Origin: Deltaproteobacteria bacterium
Lineage (GTDB): Bacteria; Desulfobacterota; Dissulfuribacteria; Dissulfuribacterales; QOAL01
Direction: 5' to 3'
Assembly: GCA_027003115.1 (NCBI GenBank)
Contig: JALWYS010000191.1
Span: 2,857 to 36,098, forward strand
DNA: 33,242 bases
Shown here: positions 19,260-31,943 of the stretch, in pieces
Position numbering within the stretch: position 1 is the stretch's first letter
Layout: the number at the start of each line of letters is the position of its first letter
Translations under genes and position numbers: made by a program
Notes under the pieces: generated by a model
Told to the model about the DNA's origin: nothing
What the model saw: the letters and a program-made list of their open reading frames with translations, nothing else
The model's database searches: none

Positions 19260-21344
19260 ATGGCAAGTTCTGTTTACAGCATCTGTGGAATGTGTGCAGT
19301 CCGTTGCCCGATTCGCGTAGAAGTTGAAGACGGCAGGGTCTCCTGGATAGAAGGCAATGCCAACGATCCAGGGATGGGAACAAGCCTTTGTGCCAAGGGT
19401 ATTGCCGGCAGGGCACTGCTTTACGACGACGAAAGGCTTCAGTACCCGATGATAAGGGATGGAGAGCGTGGATCTGGCAAATGGAAAAGGGTTTCATGGG
19501 ATGAGGCCTATGACTTTGTGACTTCTAAACTCAAGGAGATCATGCAAAAGCATGGTGCAAGAGCGGTGATGCTGAGCGACAGAGGCGGTCCCTTTGCAGA
19601 CATGAGAAAGGCCTTCATGAAGGCTATAGGTTCTCCAAACTACTGCAATCATGATTGTACCTGCGGAAGAAATACCCATCATGCGTCAAAGTCCGTGTAC
19701 GGTCTGGGAAGAAAGGGCCTGGCTTATGATTTCAAAAATGCGAAACAGATCGTGCTCTTTGGCAGGAACATGGCGGAATCCTTCAAAGTGAAGGAGGTCA
19801 AGTCCTTCATGCAAGGGGTCAAAAAAGGTGCAAAGGTCACCTATATTGATCCGAGGGCAGCGCTAACGGCCTCAAAGTCCGCAAGGTACTGGCAGATACG
19901 GCCTGGCACCGACTACGCCCTTCTTTTGGCAATAGCCAATGTCATTTTGAAAGACGGCCTTTACGACAAGGAATTCGTGAAGAAGTATGTTACGGGAATT
20001 ACCAAGTTCAAAAATTTTGTAAAGGGTTACACACCTTCATGGGCGGAAAAGGAGACGGGTATTCCTGCAGATGAGATCGTTTCCTTTTGTAAGGATATAG
20101 CAGCAGATAAGCCGCAAGTCATCTTCCATCCAGGTTGGCACCTTTCCAGATATAATGATTCCTTTTATGCGAGCCGCATGATCCATATCATGAATGTCTT
20201 GATGGGAAATATTGAGGTCCCTGGTGGCCAGTTTTATCCTAAGGCGCCTAAAGACGCCGGATACAAGGGGCTAAAGAGTTTAGGAGCCGACATTCCCAAG
20301 GTTGAAGAAAAGAGAGCAGATGGCTGTGGGTGGAAATACAAGCGATTTGACGCAGGCCCTGGCCTTCTGCACCTTATGTACGAAGCTATTGAAACAGAGG
20401 ATCCCTATCCAATAAAGGCCTACTTTGTTGTTAGGCATGACCCACTGCTGGCCCTTCCGGATCCTGAGGAACAAAAACGTATTCTAAACAAGCTTGATCT
20501 CATTGTGGTTGTTGACGTCAACTACAGTGAAACCTTTGGCTTTGCCGACGTGATCTTGCCTGAAAGCACATATCTTGAGCGCGACACCATGATGAGAACC
20601 GACAAGGGGCTTAAGCCTGGTTTCAGTATGAGAAAAAAGGCCGTGGAGCCCGTTTATGATACCAAGGCAGGCTGGGAGATCTGGACCGAGCTTGCCCACA
20701 GACTGGGAAAGGGCAATTATTTCCCGTACAAGACCATTGAGGATATCTGGAGGTATCAGCTTCAAGATACAGACATCAAGCTTCAGGACTTTGACGAAAA
20801 GGGCTTTGTCCAGCTTACCAAAGAGCCCATCTGGTATGACAGAAACAAGCTGAAGTTTCCTACCCCTTCTGGGAAAATAGAGCTGATTTCCAAGAAGCTG
20901 GAAGACGAGGGCATTCCCTCTTTTATCCCCTACGAAAGTCCCAAAAAGCCTGAAAAGGGCGAATTCAGACTCCTTTTTGGACGTACTGGCTATCAAACCC
21001 ACGGCCAGACAACCAATAATCCCATCATTTCCGAGCTCATGGGTACCAATTGTCTTTGGATAAACACCCAGGCAGCCAAGGAACTTGGCATTAAGGATGG
21101 CCAGGAGGTCGTTGTTAGCAACAAAGGTGTGACTGGAAAGATAAAGGCCAGGGTTACGGATTTTATACATCCTGAAGCTGTCTTCATGCTGCACGGCTAT
21201 GGCCGTTCAATCCCATTCCAGACCAGGGCCTACAAAAAGGGTCTGGCGGACCAGGTGTTCATGAAGGGGTTGTTGAAGGTTTGGGACAAGGCAGGAGGGA
21301 GCGTCTCTCTTTGTGAGTCCTTTGTAAAGGTCACGCCTGCATAA
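19260..21344 (+). CDS. molybdopterin (MopB superfamily) oxidoreductase, thiosulfate/polysulfide reductase-like catalytic subunit, no signal peptide
   Basis: N-terminal [4Fe-4S] motif CGMCAVRCPIRVEVEDGRVSWIEGN...C; SWDEAYDFV; FPTPSGKIELISKKLEDEG; no N-terminal twin-arginine leader. Confidence 0.88.
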   Translation: MASSVYSICGMCAVRCPIRVEVEDGRVSWIEGNANDPGMGTSLCAKGIAGRALLYDDERLQYPMIRDGERGSGKWKRVSWDEAYDFVTSKLKEIMQKHGARAVMLSDRGGPFADMRKAFMKAIGSPNYCNHDCTCGRNTHHASKSVYGLGRKGLAYDFKNAKQIVLFGRNMAESFKVKEVKSFMQGVKKGAKVTYIDPRAALTASKSARYWQIRPGTDYALLLAIANVILKDGLYDKEFVKKYVTGITKFKNFVKGYTPSWAEKETGIPADEIVSFCKDIAADKPQVIFHPGWHLSRYNDSFYASRMIHIMNVLMGNIEVPGGQFYPKAPKDAGYKGLKSLGADIPKVEEKRADGCGWKYKRFDAGPGLLHLMYEAIETEDPYPIKAYFVVRHDPLLALPDPEEQKRILNKLDLIVVVDVNYSETFGFADVILPESTYLERDTMMRTDKGLKPGFSMRKKAVEPVYDTKAGWEIWTELAHRLGKGNYFPYKTIEDIWRYQLQDTDIKLQDFDEKGFVQLTKEPIWYDRNKLKFPTPSGKIELISKKLEDEGIPSFIPYESPKKPEKGEFRLLFGRTGYQTHGQTTNNPIISELMGTNCLWINTQAAKELGIKDGQEVVVSNKGVTGKIKARVTDFIHPEAVFMLHGYGRSIPFQTRAYKKGLADQVFMKGLLKVWDKAGGSVSLCESFVKVTPA

Positions 21345-21356
21345 GGAGGGTATGAA

Positions 21357-21860
21357 ATGAGCAAATATCACGTTGAACAGGATATGACCCTTTGTATTGG
21401 CTGCTTGGCCTGCGAAGCAGCATGCAAGGACAAAAACAATGTTCCGGTTGGTTCCCACTACTGCAAGATGATACCCGTGGGGCCCAGGATGGTACGGAAT
21501 GTACCTGTGATCCAATATGTCTACATGGCTTGTTTCCACTGTGAAAAGCCCTGGTGTGTGGATGCCTGTCCCACAGGCGCTATGCAGAAACGGGAAAAGG
21601 ACGGGATCGTCTTCGTGGATGCAGAACTGTGTGTGGGTTGCAAGGCGTGCATCAAGGCTTGTCCTTGGGGGGTGCCCCAGTGGGATTCCAACACGGGAAA
21701 GGTTGGCAAGTGCGACCTTTGCAAGGACAGGATCGATCAGGGGCTTAAGCCCGCCTGTGTGACCAAGTGCACAACCGGCTCCCTGCAGTTTCTGACGCCG
21801 GAAGAGGCCTCTGAGAAAAAACGCAGGGATTTTGCCGAACAGATGCTGAAAACGGCTTAA
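21357..21860 (+). CDS. four-cluster [4Fe-4S] ferredoxin-like electron-transfer subunit (PsrB/PhsB/DmsB type)
   Basis: CIGCLACEAAC, CFHCEKPWCVDAC, CVGCKACIKAC, CDLC...ACVTKC motifs. Confidence 0.92.
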   Translation: MSKYHVEQDMTLCIGCLACEAACKDKNNVPVGSHYCKMIPVGPRMVRNVPVIQYVYMACFHCEKPWCVDACPTGAMQKREKDGIVFVDAELCVGCKACIKACPWGVPQWDSNTGKVGKCDLCKDRIDQGLKPACVTKCTTGSLQFLTPEEASEKKRRDFAEQMLKTA

Positions 21861-21872
21861 GAAAGGCGAATC

Positions 21873-22250
21873 ATGACACCGGGAACTTATCTACCAACCG
21901 AGTACCTGCCCGTACTGATAATGCTCCTTTTTGCAACGGGCTTTGGAGTTGTGACCCTTTGGGTGGGGAAATTCTTCAGGCTGAGAAGGCCCTATGCTGA
22001 GAAGCTTGAGGCCTATGAATCTGGAAACCCGCCATCGGCGCCTCCAAGGTTCAGGTTCTCCATCAAGTTTTATCTCATTGCCATTTTGTTCGTGGTTTTT
22101 GATGTGGAGGCCATTTTTCTTTATCCGTGGGCGCTGGTTTACGACAATATCGGCATCTTTGCCGTGATAGAGATGTTTCTTTTCATATTCTTGCTTCTCG
22201 TAGGATATGCATATGCTTGGCGAAAGGAGGCCTTGGAGTGGGAAAGATAA
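21873..22250 (+). CDS. nuoA: NADH-quinone oxidoreductase subunit A
   Basis: YESGNPPSAPPRFRFSIKFYLIAILFVVFDVEAIFLYPWA is the NuoA signature. Confidence 0.96.
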   Translation: MTPGTYLPTEYLPVLIMLLFATGFGVVTLWVGKFFRLRRPYAEKLEAYESGNPPSAPPRFRFSIKFYLIAILFVVFDVEAIFLYPWALVYDNIGIFAVIEMFLFIFLLLVGYAYAWRKEALEWER

Positions 22251-22759
22251 CCTCCCCGGATCTAGTGCCAGTGGCTGAAGGCATCAAGGTTATACCTGGC
22301 GCAAATACGTTTTTGATGCAGTTTGACAAGATTGTTAACTGGAGCCGAGCTGGCTCCATCTGGCCCGTCACATTTGGCTTGGCCTGATGCGCCATTGAAA
22401 TGATGGCTGCTGGAAGCAGCCACCACGATCTGGACCGCTTTGGAATAATCTTCAGGGCAAGTCCAAGACAGGCTGACGCCATGATAGTGGCAGGCACTGT
22501 CACCCAGAAAATGGCCCCGGTGGTTCGGAGGGTTTACGACCAGATGCCAGAACCAAGGTACGTCATTGCCATGGGAAGCTGTGCATGCAGCGGTGGCGTA
22601 TTCAAGACCTATCATACCGTTCAGGGAGTTGATGAGTTTTTACCTGTTGATGTGTACGTGCCAGGGTGTCCGCCAAGGCCCGAAGCACTGCTGGAAGGCT
22701 TTATTCAGCTCCAGCAGAAGATGATGAAGGAGGAAATGAGGTGGAGCCGCTGGAGATAG
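22238..22759 (+). CDS. nuoB: NADH-quinone oxidoreductase subunit B, candidate selenoprotein (in-frame TGA at 22385-22387)
   Basis: GTG start overlapping the nuoA end; continuous frame ...[16 protein letters not shown][TGA][19 protein letters not shown]...[13 protein letters not shown]...[17 protein letters not shown]. The TGA replaces the first Cys of the conserved CC motif, and both flanks are clearly NuoB in the same frame. Confidence 0.88.
22401..22425 (+). promoter_or_regulatory. Candidate bacterial SECIS element within nuoB
   Basis: UGAUGGCUGCU-GGA-AGCAGCCACCA: 8 contiguous bp plus a mismatch and 2 bp more; apical loop starts with G; loop begins 24 nt after the UGA. Confidence 0.65.
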
Positions 22760-23331
22760 CAAGGAAATTACAGGAGAGGTTCCCAGACCAGGTTATTGAA
22801 GTCACGGAATGTCGTGACCAGGTGGGAATCGTGGTCAGGAAGGACAGGATAGTGGAGATGCTTCGCTGGCTGCATGATGACCCATCCATGCAGTTCAACC
22901 ATCTGGCCGATCTATGTGGTGTTGACTACCTGGGTAAAAAGGACGTGCGTTTCGAGGTGGTTTACAACCTCTATTCCATTTCCCGCAGACACCGTATCCG
23001 CATACGTGCCCAGGTTCCAGAGGATGACTGCCAGATAGATTCTGTCACCTCCATCTGGATGGGTGCAGACTGGCATGAAAGGGAATGTTTTGATCTTTTT
23101 GGCATTACCTTCAACAACCATCCTGACATGAGGCGGATACTGCTTCCTGAAGACTGGGAAGGGTACCCGCTAAGAAAGGATTACCCGCTGGACGGTGGAG
23201 GCAAGAACTGGAAGGGTTATGACGAGGTCTTGGAAAAGTCAAAGAGGTTGAGGAAGTACGATTTTTACGGACAGTACCAGGATCCCACCAAGAAGACAGG
23301 GTTGGAAGAAGATGCAAGAGAACAAAGCTGA
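22741..23331 (+). CDS. nuoC: NADH-quinone oxidoreductase subunit C
   Basis: [14 protein letters not shown]...[26 protein letters not shown]...[48 protein letters not shown] start overlapping the nuoB end. Confidence 0.94.
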
Positions 23332-24535
23332 ATCAAAAGAAATAGTCAGGGAGGAAATGGCCTACGAGCCCTATACCATTGCCATGGGGCCTCAGCATCC
23401 AGCCACACACGGGGTGCTCAAGCTGGATCTGGAACTGGATGGTGAAACCATTTTGAACTGTACGCCCACAGTAGGCTTTCTTCACAGGGGTGTTGAAAAG
23501 CTTGCAGAAAACCTCTCCTATGCCCAGACACTGCCCCTTACGGATCGCCTGGACTACATCGCATCAATGGCCAACAATGTTGCCTACAGCATTGCCGTGG
23601 AAAAACTTCTGGGCATAGAGGTTCCCATGAGGGCCAAATACATAAGGACCATCGTCATGGAGATGGCAAGGCTTACCGGGCACCTTCTGTGGCTTGCAAC
23701 CCATGCCCTTGATATTGGTGCCATGACGGTATTCCTGTACTGTTTCAGGGAAAGGGAGAACCTCCTTGACATGTTCGAGGAGATTTGTGGCGCCCGTCTG
23801 ACAACAAGCTATACATGTGTAGGTGGTGTCAGGCAGGACGTAACAGGCCATTTCCTTGAAAGCCTCCATGCCTTCACCGAGGATTTTCCTTCCAAGATCG
23901 CTGAGTATGAGACATTGATCGACAAGAACCGCATCTGGCTAAAGAGAACCCAGGGGGTTGGAGTGGTATCTGCCGAGGATGCGGTCAGTCTTGGGCTTAC
24001 AGGGCCAACGCTAAGGGGATCGGGTGTCGATTATGACGTACGCAAACACATGCCCTACGATGCGTATCCCTACGTGGATTTCGAGGTGCCAATAGGCTCA
24101 AAGGGGGATGTATATGACAGGTACCGTTGCCGCATGGAGGAGATGCATCAGTCTAACTCCATTATCAGGCAGTGCATAGAGGCCCTGCCCAAGGGGCCAA
24201 TTTGTGCACCTGACGCTCCTGACCTGGTGATGCCCTATGGAGTACAAAAAAAGGTGGCAGCAGATGCAACCTTTGCTTCCGGTGTCATAAAACTTATGAG
24301 GGACAATGAGCACTACATCGATGGAGATGTCTATGTATCAGCAGAGGTCCCAAAGGGAGAGCTGGGATTTTACTTCGTAAGTGATGGGAGGGGCGTGCCA
24401 TACAGGATGCACATTCGCTCCCCCTCCTACATCCATATTGGCGCTTTGCCTTTCATGTGCAAGGGCCAGATGGTGGCAGATGTCATAGCAATAATAGGTA
24501 GTGTGGACGTAGTCCTGGGAGAGTGTGACAGATAA
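23312..24535 (+). CDS. nuoD: NADH-quinone oxidoreductase subunit D
   Basis: [21 protein letters not shown]...[12 protein letters not shown]...; C-terminal DVVLGECDR. Confidence 0.97.
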
Positions 24536-24549
24536 GGATTGGGGGATAA

Positions 24550-25518
24550 ATGGAACTGTTATGGATCCTCATTAAAATCTTGATTGTTTTTGCGGTGGTT
24601 ATGCTTCATGTAATGTACGCCACCTACTTTGAGCGCAAGGTAATAGGTCATATGCAGGTGCGTATGGGGCCCATGAGGGTTGGACCCCACGGTATACTGC
24701 AACCAATAGCAGACGGTCTTAAGCTTTTTTTCAAGGAAGACATCATGCCCACAGTGGCAGACAAAAAAGTCTTCTACGCAGCACCACTCATATGTCTCAT
24801 CTCTGCCCTTAGTGCAGTAGCGGTTATTCCCTTTTTCGAAGGCTTTGCCATTGCAAATATCAATATTGGGATCCTTTATATCTTTGCAATGAGTTCCCTT
24901 GCCTCATATGGTGTGGTGCTTGCTGGATGGTCGTCCAACTCCAAGTATTCTTTTCTTGGAGGCCTTCGCTCATCAGCCCAGGTCATAAGCTATGAGATTG
25001 CCATGGGGCTGAGTCTTGTAGGAGTAATGATGCTCTCTGGCTCCCTGAACCTGACAGACATAGTTCATGCCCAGATGAAGAGCCCCTTCAAGATATACCT
25101 TATTCCCCAAATAATAGGATTCTTCGTATTTGTCATTGCCATGTTTGCCGAGACCAACCGCACACCCTTCGATTTGCCAGAGGCGGAATCGGAACTGGTT
25201 GCAGGCTACTGCACCGAGTACAGCGGTATGCGCTTCGCCCTGTTTTTCATGGCGGAATACATTGGCATGATTGTCATGTCATGTCTTGCAGTGGTGTGCT
25301 TTCTGGGAGGCTGGAGCGGGCCCTTTGACGTGCCTGGGATTCCATTCTTCTGGTTCCTCATCAAGGTCTACTTCTTTATTTTCGTTTACTACTGGGTAAG
25401 GGCTACGCTTCCGCGTTACAGGTACGATCAGCTCATGGCCCTTGGCTGGAAGGTGTTAATCCCACTCGCCCTGTTCAATATTGTGCTGACAGGGACAATA
25501 AAGTCCATGTTTGGATAA
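24550..25518 (+). CDS. nuoH: NADH-quinone oxidoreductase subunit H
   Basis: YFERKVIGHMQVRMGPMRVGPHGILQPIADGLKLFFKED; AETNRTPFDLPEAESELVAGY. Confidence 0.97.
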   Translation: MELLWILIKILIVFAVVMLHVMYATYFERKVIGHMQVRMGPMRVGPHGILQPIADGLKLFFKEDIMPTVADKKVFYAAPLICLISALSAVAVIPFFEGFAIANINIGILYIFAMSSLASYGVVLAGWSSNSKYSFLGGLRSSAQVISYEIAMGLSLVGVMMLSGSLNLTDIVHAQMKSPFKIYLIPQIIGFFVFVIAMFAETNRTPFDLPEAESELVAGYCTEYSGMRFALFFMAEYIGMIVMSCLAVVCFLGGWSGPFDVPGIPFFWFLIKVYFFIFVYYWVRATLPRYRYDQLMALGWKVLIPLALFNIVLTGTIKSMFG

Positions 25519-25533
25519 TTCAGGCAGGTTGCT

Positions 25534-26172
25534 ATGAAAATAAAATACGACACACGGAAGAATCTGGCCGAGCGCATATTTTTACTGGAGATACTAAAAG
25601 GGCTTGGACTTACCCTGAAAAGGCTTTTCTCCAAGTCTGTTACCATCCAGTATCCCAAGGAACGAAAGAAGCTGTTTCCTGGCTTCAGGGGCAAGCATGC
25701 CCTTATAAGAGATCCGAACACCAAGGAATCCAGGTGTGTTGCGTGCATGAGATGTGCAACCGTGTGCCCTGCAAGGTGCATATCCATCAGGTTTTCAAAG
25801 GATGAAAAGACTCAGGCAAGGAAGGTGGAATCCTACGAAATAGATGCCCTGCGCTGCATATTTTGCGGTTACTGCGAGGAAGTATGTCCAGTAAACGCGG
25901 TGGTTCTCACCGAAGAGTATGAGTACTCCAATTACACCAGGGAACCATTCCACTTCGACATGGAAAGACTTCTCAAGAACTGGGATGAATTCGTTGAAAA
26001 GAACAAGATCGATCCGGAACAGTACAGGAATCCATTTCTCAGGCCAAGGGGACGGTCTTTGGGAGAGCTTCCCTCTGGTAAACGCATAGACGTCCCTGAG
26101 GAGTGGACCCTTGAAGGCCAGGTTATCTGGAAAGACGGCAGGGCCGTGTCTGCCAAGGAAGTTGTTTCATAA
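25534..26172 (+). CDS. nuoI: NADH-quinone oxidoreductase subunit I (2x[4Fe-4S])
   Basis: CVACMRCATVCPARCI and CIFCGYCEEVCPVNAV. Confidence 0.96.
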   Translation: MKIKYDTRKNLAERIFLLEILKGLGLTLKRLFSKSVTIQYPKERKKLFPGFRGKHALIRDPNTKESRCVACMRCATVCPARCISIRFSKDEKTQARKVESYEIDALRCIFCGYCEEVCPVNAVVLTEEYEYSNYTREPFHFDMERLLKNWDEFVEKNKIDPEQYRNPFLRPRGRSLGELPSGKRIDVPEEWTLEGQVIWKDGRAVSAKEVVS

Positions 26173-26186
26173 ATCGGGAGGGTTAA

Positions 26187-26702
26187 ATGGTTCAACTGTT
26201 ATTCTTTTATTTTGCCCTGGTTGTGATTGGGCTGGGTTTGCGCATTGTCACCTGCAAGAACCCTGTTCATAGCGTGCTTCTCATGCTGGTCCTGTTCTTT
26301 CATATGGCTGGCTTCTACCTGCTGCTCAATGCCGAGTTTCTGGCAGCGGTACAGGTCATAGTGTATGCAGGAGCCATTCTGGTCCTGTATCTGTTCGTCC
26401 TGTTTTTGGTAAACCTTCGGGAAGAGGTGAAGATGAGTCCCTTTATTGAAAAGGGCAAGTGGTTGGGAATAGTGGGCGCAGTTGTACTTTTCATAACCTT
26501 TTTAAGGGGTGTCATGAACTTTTCTCTTGGCCCCCACGGAGAGTACACCATTGAAAAGGTGCAACAGCTCACCCATACCAAGGCAATGGGAGAGGCCATC
26601 TACACCGCATACATACTTCCATTTGAGATTGCAGGTTTGATTCTTCTCGTGGCTGTGATCGGCGGATTGGCCCTGGCCAAGAAGGAAAAAAAGGGGGCAT
26701 AA
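26187..26702 (+). CDS. nuoJ: NADH-quinone oxidoreductase subunit J
   Basis: NAEFLAAVQVIVYAGAILVLYLFVLFLVNLR. Confidence 0.95.
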   Translation: MVQLLFFYFALVVIGLGLRIVTCKNPVHSVLLMLVLFFHMAGFYLLLNAEFLAAVQVIVYAGAILVLYLFVLFLVNLREEVKMSPFIEKGKWLGIVGAVVLFITFLRGVMNFSLGPHGEYTIEKVQQLTHTKAMGEAIYTAYILPFEIAGLILLVAVIGGLALAKKEKKGA

Positions 26703-26703
26703 A

Positions 26704-27006
26704 ATGGTTCATTTAAGCTGGTATCTCACTGTATCAGCCATGCTTTTCTGCATAGGGGTTTTTGGATTCCTGACAAGGCGGAACATCATAATGATGCTGT
26801 TGTCAATTGAGCTTATGCTCAACTCGGTAAACCTCAACCTTGCTGCCATGAGTCACTACATGGAGGATCTCCGTGGGCAGGTCCTGGTCTTTTTTATAAT
26901 AGCCGTTGCAGCGGCCGAGGCGGCAATAGGGCTGGGCATAGTGGTTACCCTGTTCCGCAATTACCGTTCGGTCCACACCGAAGACATAATTAAGCTGAAA
27001 GGATGA
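26704..27006 (+). CDS. nuoK: NADH-quinone oxidoreductase subunit K
   Basis: FLTRRNIIMMLLSIELMLNSVNLN...AAAEAAIGLGIVVTLFRN. Confidence 0.96.
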   Translation: MVHLSWYLTVSAMLFCIGVFGFLTRRNIIMMLLSIELMLNSVNLNLAAMSHYMEDLRGQVLVFFIIAVAAAEAAIGLGIVVTLFRNYRSVHTEDIIKLKG

Positions 27007-27013
27007 GGTAGAG

Positions 27014-28933
27014 ATGAATATTCCTATATACTTGCTGGTAATTCCGTTTCTGCCCCTGGCTTCCTTTGTATTCACCCTGCTTCTTGGGAAAAGGCTGGGA
27101 GAAAAGGCTCACTGGCCTCCCATAATCGCGGTTCTCATCTCTTTTCTTTGCGCCTGTTACGCATTTGACCAGGTGCTTCATGGCAACCACGTAAATGCGG
27201 ATCTTTACACCTGGTTTGCCTCTGCCAAGTTCAAGGCGTCCGTTGGCTTTCTCCTTGATGAGCTTACGGCAGTAATGCTCATAGTTGTTACCTCCATAAG
27301 CAGTCTTGTTCACATCTATTCCGTGGGTTACATGCACGACGATCCAGGGTACGCTAGGTTCTTCTCCTATTTGAGCCTCTTTACCTTCTCCATGCTCATG
27401 CTGGTCCTGGGGAACAACTTTTTGCAGCTCTATTTTGGCTGGGAAGCGGTTGGCCTTTCATCCTATTTGCTCATCGGTTTTTGGTATCACAAGAAGTCTG
27501 CATCTGACGCCGGCAAGAAGGCCTTTATTGTGAACAGGTTCGGAGATTTTGGTTTCGGCTTGGGAATAATAGTGGTTTTTCTCATCTTTGGCTCTGTTCA
27601 CTATGATACGGTCTTTGCCCATGTCCATGACGTGGTTGGTCAGACCTTCAACTTCATGGGCTTTAATTTCGACGTCATAAGTCTTATGGCAATACTGCTA
27701 TTTTGCGGTGCGGTAGGTAAGTCGGCCCAGATTCCGCTTCATGTTTGGTTGCCAGATGCAATGGAGGGCCCTACCCCCGTTAGTGCCCTTATCCATGCTG
27801 CCACCATGGTTACAGCAGGTGTATTTCTGGTTGCAAGATGTAACCCCATCTTCAGCCTGTCTCCTGCTGCCATGAACCTTGTAACAATAATAGGTGCACT
27901 TACGTGTTTCTTTGCCGCAACCATTGCTCTTGTGCAGGTGGACATAAAGAGGGTCATAGCCTATTCCACTGTGAGCCAGCTGGCCTACATGTTTATAGGT
28001 TGCGGTGTTGGCGCTTACGGGACAGGTATTTTTCACCTTTATACCCATGCCTACTTCAAGGCCCTTCTTTTTCTTGGTGCTGGTAGCGTAATTCACGCAA
28101 TGAGTGACGAGCAGGATATTAGAAAGATGGGAGGCCTCAAGAAATACCTGCCTGTAACCTACTTCACGTTTCTGTTAGCGTCTCTTTCCATTTCAGGAAT
28201 CCCGCCCTTTGCCGGCTTTTTCAGTAAGGACCAGATCCTTGCCGAGGCGTTTGCATCCCATGTTGCCTCTGGAAAGTTTGCGTGGTTCGTTGGTACGGTT
28301 GTTGCGGCAATGACTGCCTTTTACTCTTTCAGGCTCATATTCTTGACATTTCACGGTGAGTTCAGGGGAACAGAGGATCAGCGAAAGCATCTGCATGAAT
28401 CCCCCCTTTCCATGACCATACCCCTGACACTTCTAGCACTTGGAGCCCTTGCTTCTGGCTGGGTTGGTATTCCAGAGGTTCTTGGAGGGGAAAATGGCTG
28501 GGCGCATTTTCTAGCCCCGGTTGTTGGACATCCGGAAGTTCATCTCAGCGAATTTACCGAATGGGTGCTTATGGCAATCTCCGTGGCAGCGGGTATTGGT
28601 GGAATATATCTGGCATACGTCATGTACATGGTTAAGCCTGAGATTCCAGTGGAGCTTGCCCGTAAACATCCAAAGCTGTACGACACCCTTTTTAACAAGT
28701 ACTACGTGGATGAGTTTTATAGCGCAACAATTGTCCAGCCCACCATAAGTTGCGGCAGAAAGGTCCTTAGAGGCATAACGGACGGAAAGATTATAGAGGG
28801 GGTTGTAAACGGTGTTCCTGGTTTGATCGGCAAGTTCAGTCACGTACTTGCAAGACTCCAAAACGGAAGAGTCCAGCACTATGGCGGAGTGATGGCTGTG
28901 GGTGCCTTTATTCTTCTTTGGATATTCATGTAA
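27014..28933 (+). CDS. nuoL: NADH-quinone oxidoreductase subunit L
   Basis: SVGYMHDDPGYARFFSYLSLFTFSML...GKSAQIPLHVWLPDAMEGPTPVSALIHAATMVTAGVFL. Confidence 0.97.
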   Translation: MNIPIYLLVIPFLPLASFVFTLLLGKRLGEKAHWPPIIAVLISFLCACYAFDQVLHGNHVNADLYTWFASAKFKASVGFLLDELTAVMLIVVTSISSLVHIYSVGYMHDDPGYARFFSYLSLFTFSMLMLVLGNNFLQLYFGWEAVGLSSYLLIGFWYHKKSASDAGKKAFIVNRFGDFGFGLGIIVVFLIFGSVHYDTVFAHVHDVVGQTFNFMGFNFDVISLMAILLFCGAVGKSAQIPLHVWLPDAMEGPTPVSALIHAATMVTAGVFLVARCNPIFSLSPAAMNLVTIIGALTCFFAATIALVQVDIKRVIAYSTVSQLAYMFIGCGVGAYGTGIFHLYTHAYFKALLFLGAGSVIHAMSDEQDIRKMGGLKKYLPVTYFTFLLASLSISGIPPFAGFFSKDQILAEAFASHVASGKFAWFVGTVVAAMTAFYSFRLIFLTFHGEFRGTEDQRKHLHESPLSMTIPLTLLALGALASGWVGIPEVLGGENGWAHFLAPVVGHPEVHLSEFTEWVLMAISVAAGIGGIYLAYVMYMVKPEIPVELARKHPKLYDTLFNKYYVDEFYSATIVQPTISCGRKVLRGITDGKIIEGVVNGVPGLIGKFSHVLARLQNGRVQHYGGVMAVGAFILLWIFM

Positions 28934-28954
28934 CCAAGGGGAGGAATAGCGAAC

Positions 28955-30496
28955 ATGGATTACGGATTTCCAATACTTAGTTCCCTGATTTTTCTACCAA
29001 TGATCGGGGCAGCGGCACTGCTTTTCATACCGCGTTCAAACGAAGACGATGTAAGGCGTATGGCGCTACTTATCACCATAGTGGAGTTTCTGCTCTCTCT
29101 TCCTCTGTGGTTTCAATTCGACAAGTCTTCACATCTCATGCAGTTTGTGGAAAAACACCCCTGGATTCCTGCATGGAACGTCAACTACTACCTGGGGATA
29201 GATGGAATCAGCATACTGTTCGTGCTTCTTTCCACCCTTATCACCATTCTTTGCGTTCTTGTTTCCTGGACAGCAATTACTGACAAGGTAAAGGAGTTCT
29301 TCGCGGCATTGCTCTTCCTGGAAGGTGCCATGATCGGGGTGTTTTGCTCCCTTGACTTTTTCCTGTTTTACATATTCTGGGAGGCCATGCTCATTCCCAT
29401 GTACCTGATAATAGGTGTATGGGGCGGGCCTGGCAGGCTGTACGCTGCCATAAAGTTCTTTCTATACACCCTGGTGGGAAGTGTGTTGATGCTGGTTGGA
29501 ATTATCACACTCTATTATCAAGGGGGGCACACCTTTGATATTTTAAAGCTTTCTGCAAATGCCTACCCCTTGAAGCTACAGATGATTCTCTTCTGGGCCT
29601 TCTTTGCAGCCTTTGCAGTCAAGGTGCCCATGTGGCCAGTACACACCTGGCTGCCAGATGCCCATACCGAGGCCCCTGCTGCAGGCTCTGTCATCCTTGC
29701 CGGGATCCTCATCAAGATGGGGGCTTACGGATTCCTCAGATTCTCCATGCCCATGTTTCCCCAGGCAACCCAGGCAATGATGGTACCCATGCTGATACTT
29801 TCCATAATCGCCATTGTTTACGGGGCGGTTATATGCCTTGGGCAGGACGATATGAAAAGGCTCATCGCCTATAGCTCGGTCAGCCACATGGGTTTTGTAA
29901 CCCTTGGCATGTTCGCACTTAATTACCAGGGGCTTGAAGGTGCTATTCTCCAGATGGTCAATCATGGGGTTGTCACAGGGGCGCTATTTCTTTCAGTGGG
30001 AATAATTTATGAACAGACACATACCAGGGAGATTTCCGATTACGGAGGGTTAGCAACTCTTACCCCCATCTTTGCGGGCTTTTTTATGGTCTTCACACTG
30101 GCAGCAGTTGGCTTACCTGGATTGAATGGGTTTATTGGCGAATTTCTCATAATACTTGGTGGCTTTGCAACCAAGACGTGGGCCGGATTCTTTGCTGCAA
30201 CAGGAATCATCATTGGGGCAGGTTACATGCTCTGGCTATATCAGCGAGTATTTTTCATGGAGAAGAATCCTAAGATGGTAGCGCTTGGGCTTCGTGACTT
30301 GAACTGCAGGGAGCTTATAACCCTTTTGCCCATGCTGCTTCTCATATTCTGGATTGGAATTTATCCAAACGTTTTTTTGAGCTATATGCATGCCTCTGTT
30401 GTCCACTTGCTGCAACAGGTCCATGCATCAACGGGCAGTGTCCAGGCCAATACCAACGCCATAGTAGAATGTGCGCTTCGATTCGTAGGAGGCTAG
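28955..30496 (+). CDS. nuoM: NADH-quinone oxidoreductase subunit M
   Basis: FWEAMLIPMYLIIGVWGG...KVPMWPVHTWLPDAHTEAPAAGSVILAGILIKMGAYG. Confidence 0.97.
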   Translation: MDYGFPILSSLIFLPMIGAAALLFIPRSNEDDVRRMALLITIVEFLLSLPLWFQFDKSSHLMQFVEKHPWIPAWNVNYYLGIDGISILFVLLSTLITILCVLVSWTAITDKVKEFFAALLFLEGAMIGVFCSLDFFLFYIFWEAMLIPMYLIIGVWGGPGRLYAAIKFFLYTLVGSVLMLVGIITLYYQGGHTFDILKLSANAYPLKLQMILFWAFFAAFAVKVPMWPVHTWLPDAHTEAPAAGSVILAGILIKMGAYGFLRFSMPMFPQATQAMMVPMLILSIIAIVYGAVICLGQDDMKRLIAYSSVSHMGFVTLGMFALNYQGLEGAILQMVNHGVVTGALFLSVGIIYEQTHTREISDYGGLATLTPIFAGFFMVFTLAAVGLPGLNGFIGEFLIILGGFATKTWAGFFAATGIIIGAGYMLWLYQRVFFMEKNPKMVALGLRDLNCRELITLLPMLLLIFWIGIYPNVFLSYMHASVVHLLQQVHASTGSVQANTNAIVECALRFVGG

Positions 30497-30503
30497 GAGA
30501 GAC

Positions 30504-31943
30504 ATGGTTACAGGATTTTCTTTACCAATCATTGCACCCCTGGGGCCTGAAATTTTTCTGGCAGTCATAGGCTGCGCGGTGATACTTGCCGATATCATCT
30601 GGAGGGAGCAACGATATGTTGTCCCCATAGTGGCAATGGCGGGTGCAACCGCCACAGTGATAATGGTTTTAAAGGCCTCTGGCGTCTCTTTTTCTGGGAT
30701 GTACACAGTGGATGCCTTTAGCGCATTCTTCAAGATAGTCTGCCTCCTTGGGCTCATGCTTGCCATCCTCATGTCTCTGCGCCACCTGGACATAATGGGT
30801 GTTAAAAGGGTGGGGGAGTACTACAGCCTCATGGTCTTTTCCTGCGTTGGCATGATGATAATGGCCTCTGCAACAGACCTCATAGTTCTGTACCTTGGAC
30901 TGGAATTAATGGCCCTCAGCGTCTACTGTCTCGTAGGGCTTTTAAAGACCGATCCCAGGGCCTCAGAGGCTGCGGTCAAGTATTTGCTTCTCGGTGCCTT
31001 TGCCTCTTGTCTGCTTCTTTTTGGCATGTCCTATCTTTATGGTACAACTGGAACCACCGATATGAGCCAGATATCAAAGGCCATGGCCCAGGGCAAGCTT
31101 ACTGATAATCCTGCCTTTATGATGGGCCTTGGTCTGGTGGTAATAGCCTTTTGCTTCAAGATCGCAGCGGCTCCATTTCACATGTGGACTCCTGATGCCT
31201 ATGAAGGGGCCATGACCCCTGTTACTGCCTTCATGTCTGTTGGGCCAAAGGCGGCAGGCTTCGCAGCACTTGGAAGGGTCCTCATGGAGGCCTTTCCAAA
31301 CGCCCATTCCGACTGGATGACAGTCCTTGTAATTTTGGCCTTTCTCACCATGGCCATTGGTAACATTACAGCCCTTTGTCAGACATCCATCAAAAGGATG
31401 CTTGCCTACTCATCCATTGCCCATGCTGGTTACGCCCTCATAGGCTTTTTGCCAGGCACTGCAGAAGGCGCCTCTGCCACCATGAACTATCTCTTTATTT
31501 ACCTCTTTATGAACATGGGTGCCTTTGCAGTGATAATTCTCTTGCAATACAAAGGGCTTGTAGGTGAGGCTCTGGAAGACTACAAGGGCCTTGCAAAGAC
31601 GCATCCAGTGGCAGCAGCCCTTATGCTTGTCTTCATGTTCTCCCTTACAGGAATCCCCCCAACGGCAGGCTTTATCGGCAAGTTCAATCTCTTCATGGCA
31701 GCACTTCATGCAGGTTACACCTGGATAGTCATATTTGCCGTGCTCTTTAGCGCCATATCTGCATATTTTTACCTTAGGGTAATCATGCTCATGTACATGT
31801 ATGAGCCAGAAAAGGAGATGAAACTTGCACCTTCTGGCGCCCTTTCGGCAGTCCTGGCTATAGCCCTTACAGGGGTTATTCTCCTTGGCTGCTATCCAAA
31901 CGGCATTCTTTCCTACGCATCAAAGGCCATTATGGGACATTGA
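30504..31943 (+). CDS. nuoN: NADH-quinone oxidoreductase subunit N
   Basis: YLGLELMALSVYCLVG...KIAAAPFHMWTPDAYEGAMTPVTAFMSVGPKAAGFAAL. Confidence 0.97.
   Translation: MVTGFSLPIIAPLGPEIFLAVIGCAVILADIIWREQRYVVPIVAMAGATATVIMVLKASGVSFSGMYTVDAFSAFFKIVCLLGLMLAILMSLRHLDIMGVKRVGEYYSLMVFSCVGMMIMASATDLIVLYLGLELMALSVYCLVGLLKTDPRASEAAVKYLLLGAFASCLLLFGMSYLYGTTGTTDMSQISKAMAQGKLTDNPAFMMGLGLVVIAFCFKIAAAPFHMWTPDAYEGAMTPVTAFMSVGPKAAGFAALGRVLMEAFPNAHSDWMTVLVILAFLTMAIGNITALCQTSIKRMLAYSSIAHAGYALIGFLPGTAEGASATMNYLFIYLFMNMGAFAVIILLQYKGLVGEALEDYKGLAKTHPVAAALMLVFMFSLTGIPPTAGFIGKFNLFMAALHAGYTWIVIFAVLFSAISAYFYLRVIMLMYMYEPEKEMKLAPSGALSAVLAIALTGVILLGCYPNGILSYASKAIMGH

Follow-up and report, generated by a model that had tools for sequence, protein, structure and literature searches.

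The question raised by this locus is whether an in-frame TGA in a gene for the respiratory complex I subunit NuoB marks a broken gene or a selenocysteine (Sec) codon. The window (the whole stretch of DNA analysed, 33,242 nucleotides from a Deltaproteobacteria bacterium, with all features described here on the + strand) contains a nuoB gene at 22238-22759 that would encode a Sec-containing NuoB of 173 residues (U50). As had been claimed in a sequence-only reading of the same DNA, translation of this frame was interrupted solely by the TGA at 22385-22387, with NuoB encoded on either side of it. When this codon was read as U, the protein scored 251.6 bits against the NCBIfam NuoB model (cut-off 116) and 240.0 bits against TIGR01957 (cut-off 142.7). 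The same reading had placed the TGA at the first Cys of a tandem pair, both members of which are ligands of cluster N2, and this was borne out by alignment to solved complex I structures. The four N2 ligands of Yarrowia are C85, C86, C150 and C180 (PMC8042128), and in the Yarrowia subunit NUKM (6gcs_K) these correspond to U50, C51, C115 and C144 of the window NuoB, at an alignment offset of 35 that becomes 36 past one insertion. The window protein is a whole-length homologue of NuoB/Nqo6/PSST (NDUFS7; TIGR01957, PF01058) that exceeds the curated cut-offs, is encoded together with nuoA, C, D and H-N, and retains all four N2 ligand positions, one of them as the predicted Sec; it differs in that the first tandem residue, which is Cys in NuoB homologues, is specified by UGA and accompanied by a SECIS-like hairpin.

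The integrity of the gene was assessed from its boundaries and its pattern of codon change. The GTG start (22238-22240) is overlapped by the end of nuoA (21873-22250, stop codon at 22248-22250), with AAAGGAGG upstream of the GTG. In comparisons of all pairs among nine congeners and one close relative, the 49 codons upstream of the TGA showed 717 synonymous against 382 nonsynonymous differences, and the 122 codons downstream showed 2291 against 322. Judged by these codon differences, purifying selection acts on the TGA-bearing nuoB both before and after the TGA, and the gene is not decaying, in keeping with the earlier reading, which had argued for an intact gene from the nuoA overlap.

Conservation of the TGA in relatives, which had been proposed as a check, was borne out. 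The same nuoB codon was TGA in 9/9 genomes of the genus and also in further families, both within the order and elsewhere in the phylum. A pattern search of an even sample of the phylum recovered TGA at the first Cys in 34 of 395 genomes (16 of 245 genera) and at the second Cys in none of the 395 (Fisher p about 6e-11), and Sec at the second Cys was rejected on this count. Further matches were obtained by scanning 84,980 species, each represented by a single genome, with the degenerate pattern FGLA-TGA-C-A-x-E-M. All 82 stretches recovered (two of them truncated where the stored DNA ends) were NuoB genes reading FGLA-U-C, in frame on either side of the TGA. Their record titles named Desulfobacterota and related 'Deltaproteobacteria', Thermodesulfobacteriota, Candidatus Tharpella and Nitrospirota, a taxonomy that comes from the depositors and may be imprecise, and the majority were metagenome assemblies. 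One, however, was the isolate Thermodesulfatator autotrophicus S606, a named strain, so that errors of metagenome assembly cannot account for the TGA in general; no plasmid record matching the Thermodesulfatator locus was found.

A bacterial SECIS-like hairpin was identified at 22401-22425, with a GGCUGCU/AGCAGCC stem and an apical loop, GGA, that starts 24 nt after the UGA. The published bSECIS model calls for an apical loop of 3-9 nt with an early G, a stem of at least 4 bp, a distance of 16-37 nt from the UGA and an MFE of at most -7.5 kcal/mol (PMC13188914), and the window hairpin agrees with it in each respect. Scoring took the best hairpin with a loop 16-37 nt past the UGA and a G at loop base 1 or 2; its energy was set against those of recodings that preserved the protein. 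The window hairpin, taken as a fixed structure at 22401-22425, reached -13.0 kcal/mol against a mean of -5.3 for 5000 synonymous recodings, only 0.8% of which were as stable. The 78 distinct TGA sequences averaged -10.5 kcal/mol (recodings, -5.2), whereas the 71 Cys homologues averaged -5.5 (recodings, -5.2) and were thus not beyond chance; the two groups differed in hairpin strength with a Mann-Whitney p of about 1e-10, in a comparison of related sequences that are not independent. The bSECIS description fitted 79% of the TGA sequences and 37% of the Cys sequences. Strength was uneven, as 21% of the TGA sequences fell short of -7.5 kcal/mol under strict loop rules. The sequence-only reading had held that relatives all encoding Cys, with no SECIS-like hairpin, would tell against Sec; instead, a hairpin accompanies TGA, and Cys homologues stand at chance level.

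The stems were lineage-specific, each built around a G-bearing loop at a nearly equal distance from the UGA: GGCUGCU-GGA-AGCAGCC in the window, UGACGA-CGGGA-UCGUCA in Nitrospirota, GGCUGC-AGGU-GCAGCC in Caldimicrobium, and a further variant, AGUUGCC-AGUUC-GGCAACU. Ser codons alternated between AGC and TCG, pairing with the codons upstream, and compensatory changes were seen, with columns 6/24, for example, occurring as GC, CG, AU and UG. Because the register of the stem varies (i+j sums of 54, 55, 56, 58 and 59), pairs were counted in one register only; in that register paired cells, cells changed on both sides and a covariation score exceeded all 500 shuffles, while two other measures did not. 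Under phylogenetic pairing, only four well-supported contrasts were independent; hairpin strength differed in the expected direction in them, but they are too few for significance to be reached.

The presence of selA, selB, selC and selD in the host had also been put forward as a check, and all but selA were detected. The host genome carries a tRNA-Sec with anticodon UCA (74 bits), SelB, and a SelD (locus L199) that is itself a Sec form, with an in-frame TGA at the catalytic GUAAK position. The host draft, which is 90% complete, yielded no SelA; since 7/9 congeners have it and just one other draft of the genus lacks it, a gap in the assembly probably accounts for this. A tRNA-Sec was detected in 15 of 17 TGA-NuoB genomes of the relatives set and in 25 of 30 other Sec-NuoB genomes. 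Sec decoding is widespread in the phylum (131/148), and the host machinery is therefore necessary rather than specific evidence.

In a tree of 154 rows, a quick one built from a short protein, Sec and Cys forms of NuoB were interspersed, with at least 11 changes between them, at least four of which are forced by well-supported branches. One close pair consists of a Sec form with a continuous stem (L165) and a Cys sister (L155) with the same stem in a damaged state. Retention of this damaged version suggests that L155 is a Sec-to-Cys reversion, perhaps a recent one. Congeners additionally contain a second nuoABCDHIJKLMN set with a Cys-type NuoB (L191, L192), at about 51% NuoB identity.

The window operon spans 19260-31943. 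At its head, in place of NuoEFG, stand a PhsA/FdhA-like molybdopterin oxidoreductase (MopB; 19260-21344), which matched PRK15488 thiosulfate reductase PhsA with 594 bits, below the 694 cut-off, and a DmsB-like multi-[4Fe-4S] electron-transfer subunit (FeS; 21357-21860), with 149 bits to DmsB, below the cut-off of 214. These are followed by nuoA and nuoB, by nuoC (22741-23331, placed by homology with a likely GTG start at 22741 that overlaps nuoB), by nuoD (23312-24535), and by nuoH, I, J, K, L, M and N (24550-31943). No nuoE, nuoF or nuoG was found in this operon, and it does not correspond to an NADH-oxidising, 14-subunit complex I; the MopB-FeS head points to a Mo/W enzyme feeding this complex I. 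The same head was also observed in Thermodesulfatator autotrophicus (L096), and MopB-FeS genes accompany nuo genes in another order in some Nitrospirota (L088, L067, L129). An 11-subunit, complex I-like enzyme without NuoEFG is known from Thermosulfurimonas dismutans (PMC4911364), resembling the nuoABCDHIJKLMN set of the window; it differs in that the PhsA-like and DmsB-like head belongs to the window, and that paper reports no Sec.

Across genomes, Sec-NuoB occurred in at least three operon settings. A MopB-FeS head without NuoEFG characterises the window genus, Thermodesulfatator, Caldimicrobium and some Nitrospirota. In most Nitrospirota, nuoABCD precedes ORFs of NuoE/F/G size, taken to be these genes on account of their size and order and of weak NuoI/MopB hits, and in Syntrophaceae and Tharpella nuoABCD precedes an ORF of about 660 residues. 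Sec thus goes with NuoB itself, irrespective of the type of electron-input module. Two Nitrospirota assemblies (UBA665 and NC_groundwater_1709) each had two Sec-NuoB copies on separate contigs (L065/L129 and L067/L086), one copy in a nuoABCD-type operon and the other in a MopB-linked operon. In two Nitrospira-titled loci (L121, L125), NuoD homology was split in two by a gap of about 350 nt, perhaps owing to a divergent or longer loop.

Several other explanations of the TGA were weighed. If the TGA arose by sequencing error or recent nonsense mutation, or marks a pseudogene in decay in a cell that relies on another complex I, it would look identical at one codon, where a single substitution suffices, and the second, Cys-containing complex I of the congeners would fit such a scenario. 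It is nevertheless exceedingly improbable, given the recurrence of TGA in 9/9 congeners, 34 phylum genomes and 82 stretches that include an isolate, the lack of TGA at the neighbouring Cys, the purifying selection on either side and a hairpin selected beyond the protein sequence; error and pseudogene were accordingly rejected on conservation, codon pattern and the isolate genome. The caveat of the sequence-only reading, that a substitution or sequencing error might lie behind the TGA, is contradicted by the congeners and the isolate. That reading had also regarded a second complex I beside a decaying TGA copy as evidence against Sec: the genus does have the second complex, but the TGA copy is not in decay. 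Very unlikely, too, is that UGA is read without selenium as Cys or Trp, through an altered genetic code or a suppressor tRNA. Homologues have Cys at this position, and a dedicated Cys-tRNA(UCA) might have gone unseen by a tRNA scan that covered tRNA-Sec-like tRNAs only; however, the UCA-anticodon tRNA that was found is tRNA-Sec, the nuoB stop codon of some relatives is itself UGA, and the SECIS-like hairpin tracks the UGA. As UGA also ends many genes of the window, its reassignment was rejected.

A different possibility accepts the insertion of Sec and sees in it mainly a switch that responds to selenium, or an almost neutral exchange of little catalytic gain, with the Cys paralogue serving when selenium is lacking. 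Possession of both Sec and Cys complex I by the congeners would suit this view, and the recurrent exchange in the tree suggests that the two residues are nearly interchangeable. Many Sec copies, however, belong to the principal nuo operon in Nitrospirota, and two genomes have Sec in two NuoB copies at once, so that we consider a mere switch or neutral exchange rather unlikely. The reading preferred here is that the window nuoB is a genuine selenoprotein gene, which we hold to be very probable from the sequence evidence. Of the checks put forward in the sequence-only reading, each one that could be run turned out in favour of Sec. SelB with Sec-tRNA-Sec would decode the UGA at 22385-22387 under direction of the hairpin at 22401-22425, and the product would be a full-length NuoB in which Sec50 replaces the first tandem cysteine and acts as one of the four ligands of the [4Fe-4S] cluster N2, the electron donor to quinone. 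Sec insertion is inferred with high confidence because the UGA is conserved, selection is purifying on both sides, a SECIS-like structure is present, the host has Sec machinery and Sec and Cys have been exchanged repeatedly. Ligation of N2 by Sec50 would follow from its position by homology.

The locus shares with known prokaryotic selenoprotein families a UGA at a redox Cys position, a downstream bSECIS, Cys homologues and host Sec machinery (PMC13188914). NuoB is, however, absent from the 119 families or subfamilies of that 2026 inventory. The sole entry there that sounds like complex I, 'NADH:ubiquinone oxidoreductase subunit E' (PF02508; PMC13188914), is NqrE (COG2209 in PMC9312934), a different protein family. 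NuoB was not among the NCBIfam selenoprotein-type models matching the window protein, and no report of a Sec-containing NuoB emerged from literature text searches, the reach of which excluded bioRxiv and most subscription papers. The sequence-only reading had known of no characterised Sec-NuoB either. On the grounds of inventory, models and text searches, the window-type NuoB appears to be a previously unreported selenoprotein form, as far as found, of a near-universal respiratory subunit. HdrA and the [NiFeSe] hydrogenases offer a parallel, having Sec for Cys near or on a metal centre of an anaerobic electron-transfer enzyme, and by profile match the small subunits of NiFe hydrogenases are distantly related to NuoB. 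In the [NiFeSe] hydrogenase, though, the Sec sits on the Ni of the large subunit, whereas NuoB would have it on the [4Fe-4S] cluster N2.

Complex I is among the most studied respiratory enzymes, with N2 as its electron donor to quinone, and the reason for two adjacent cysteines at N2 is still debated. A softer and more acidic selenolate could, speculatively, tune the potential of N2 or a coupled proton, or shield the strained ligand pair from oxidation, ideas favoured only because the site is the exact ligand adjoining the quinone site. That N2 is Sec-ligated in many Desulfobacterota and Nitrospirota, the selenolate retuning electron or proton transfer to quinone or protecting the cluster, seems reasonably probable. 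In many sulfur-cycling bacteria, NuoB seems to exist as a selenoprotein, with one cluster-gripping Cys encoded as Sec. Genome annotation is likely to record Sec-type nuoB genes as truncated or broken, so that complex I may be underrated in the sulfur- and nitrogen-cycle bacteria concerned. A natural Sec at one N2 ligand, repeatedly swapped with Cys, provides a handle on N2 potential, proton coupling and oxidation sensitivity, and, if true, Sec-NuoB would constitute a natural experiment that probes what the strained pair of tandem ligands does.
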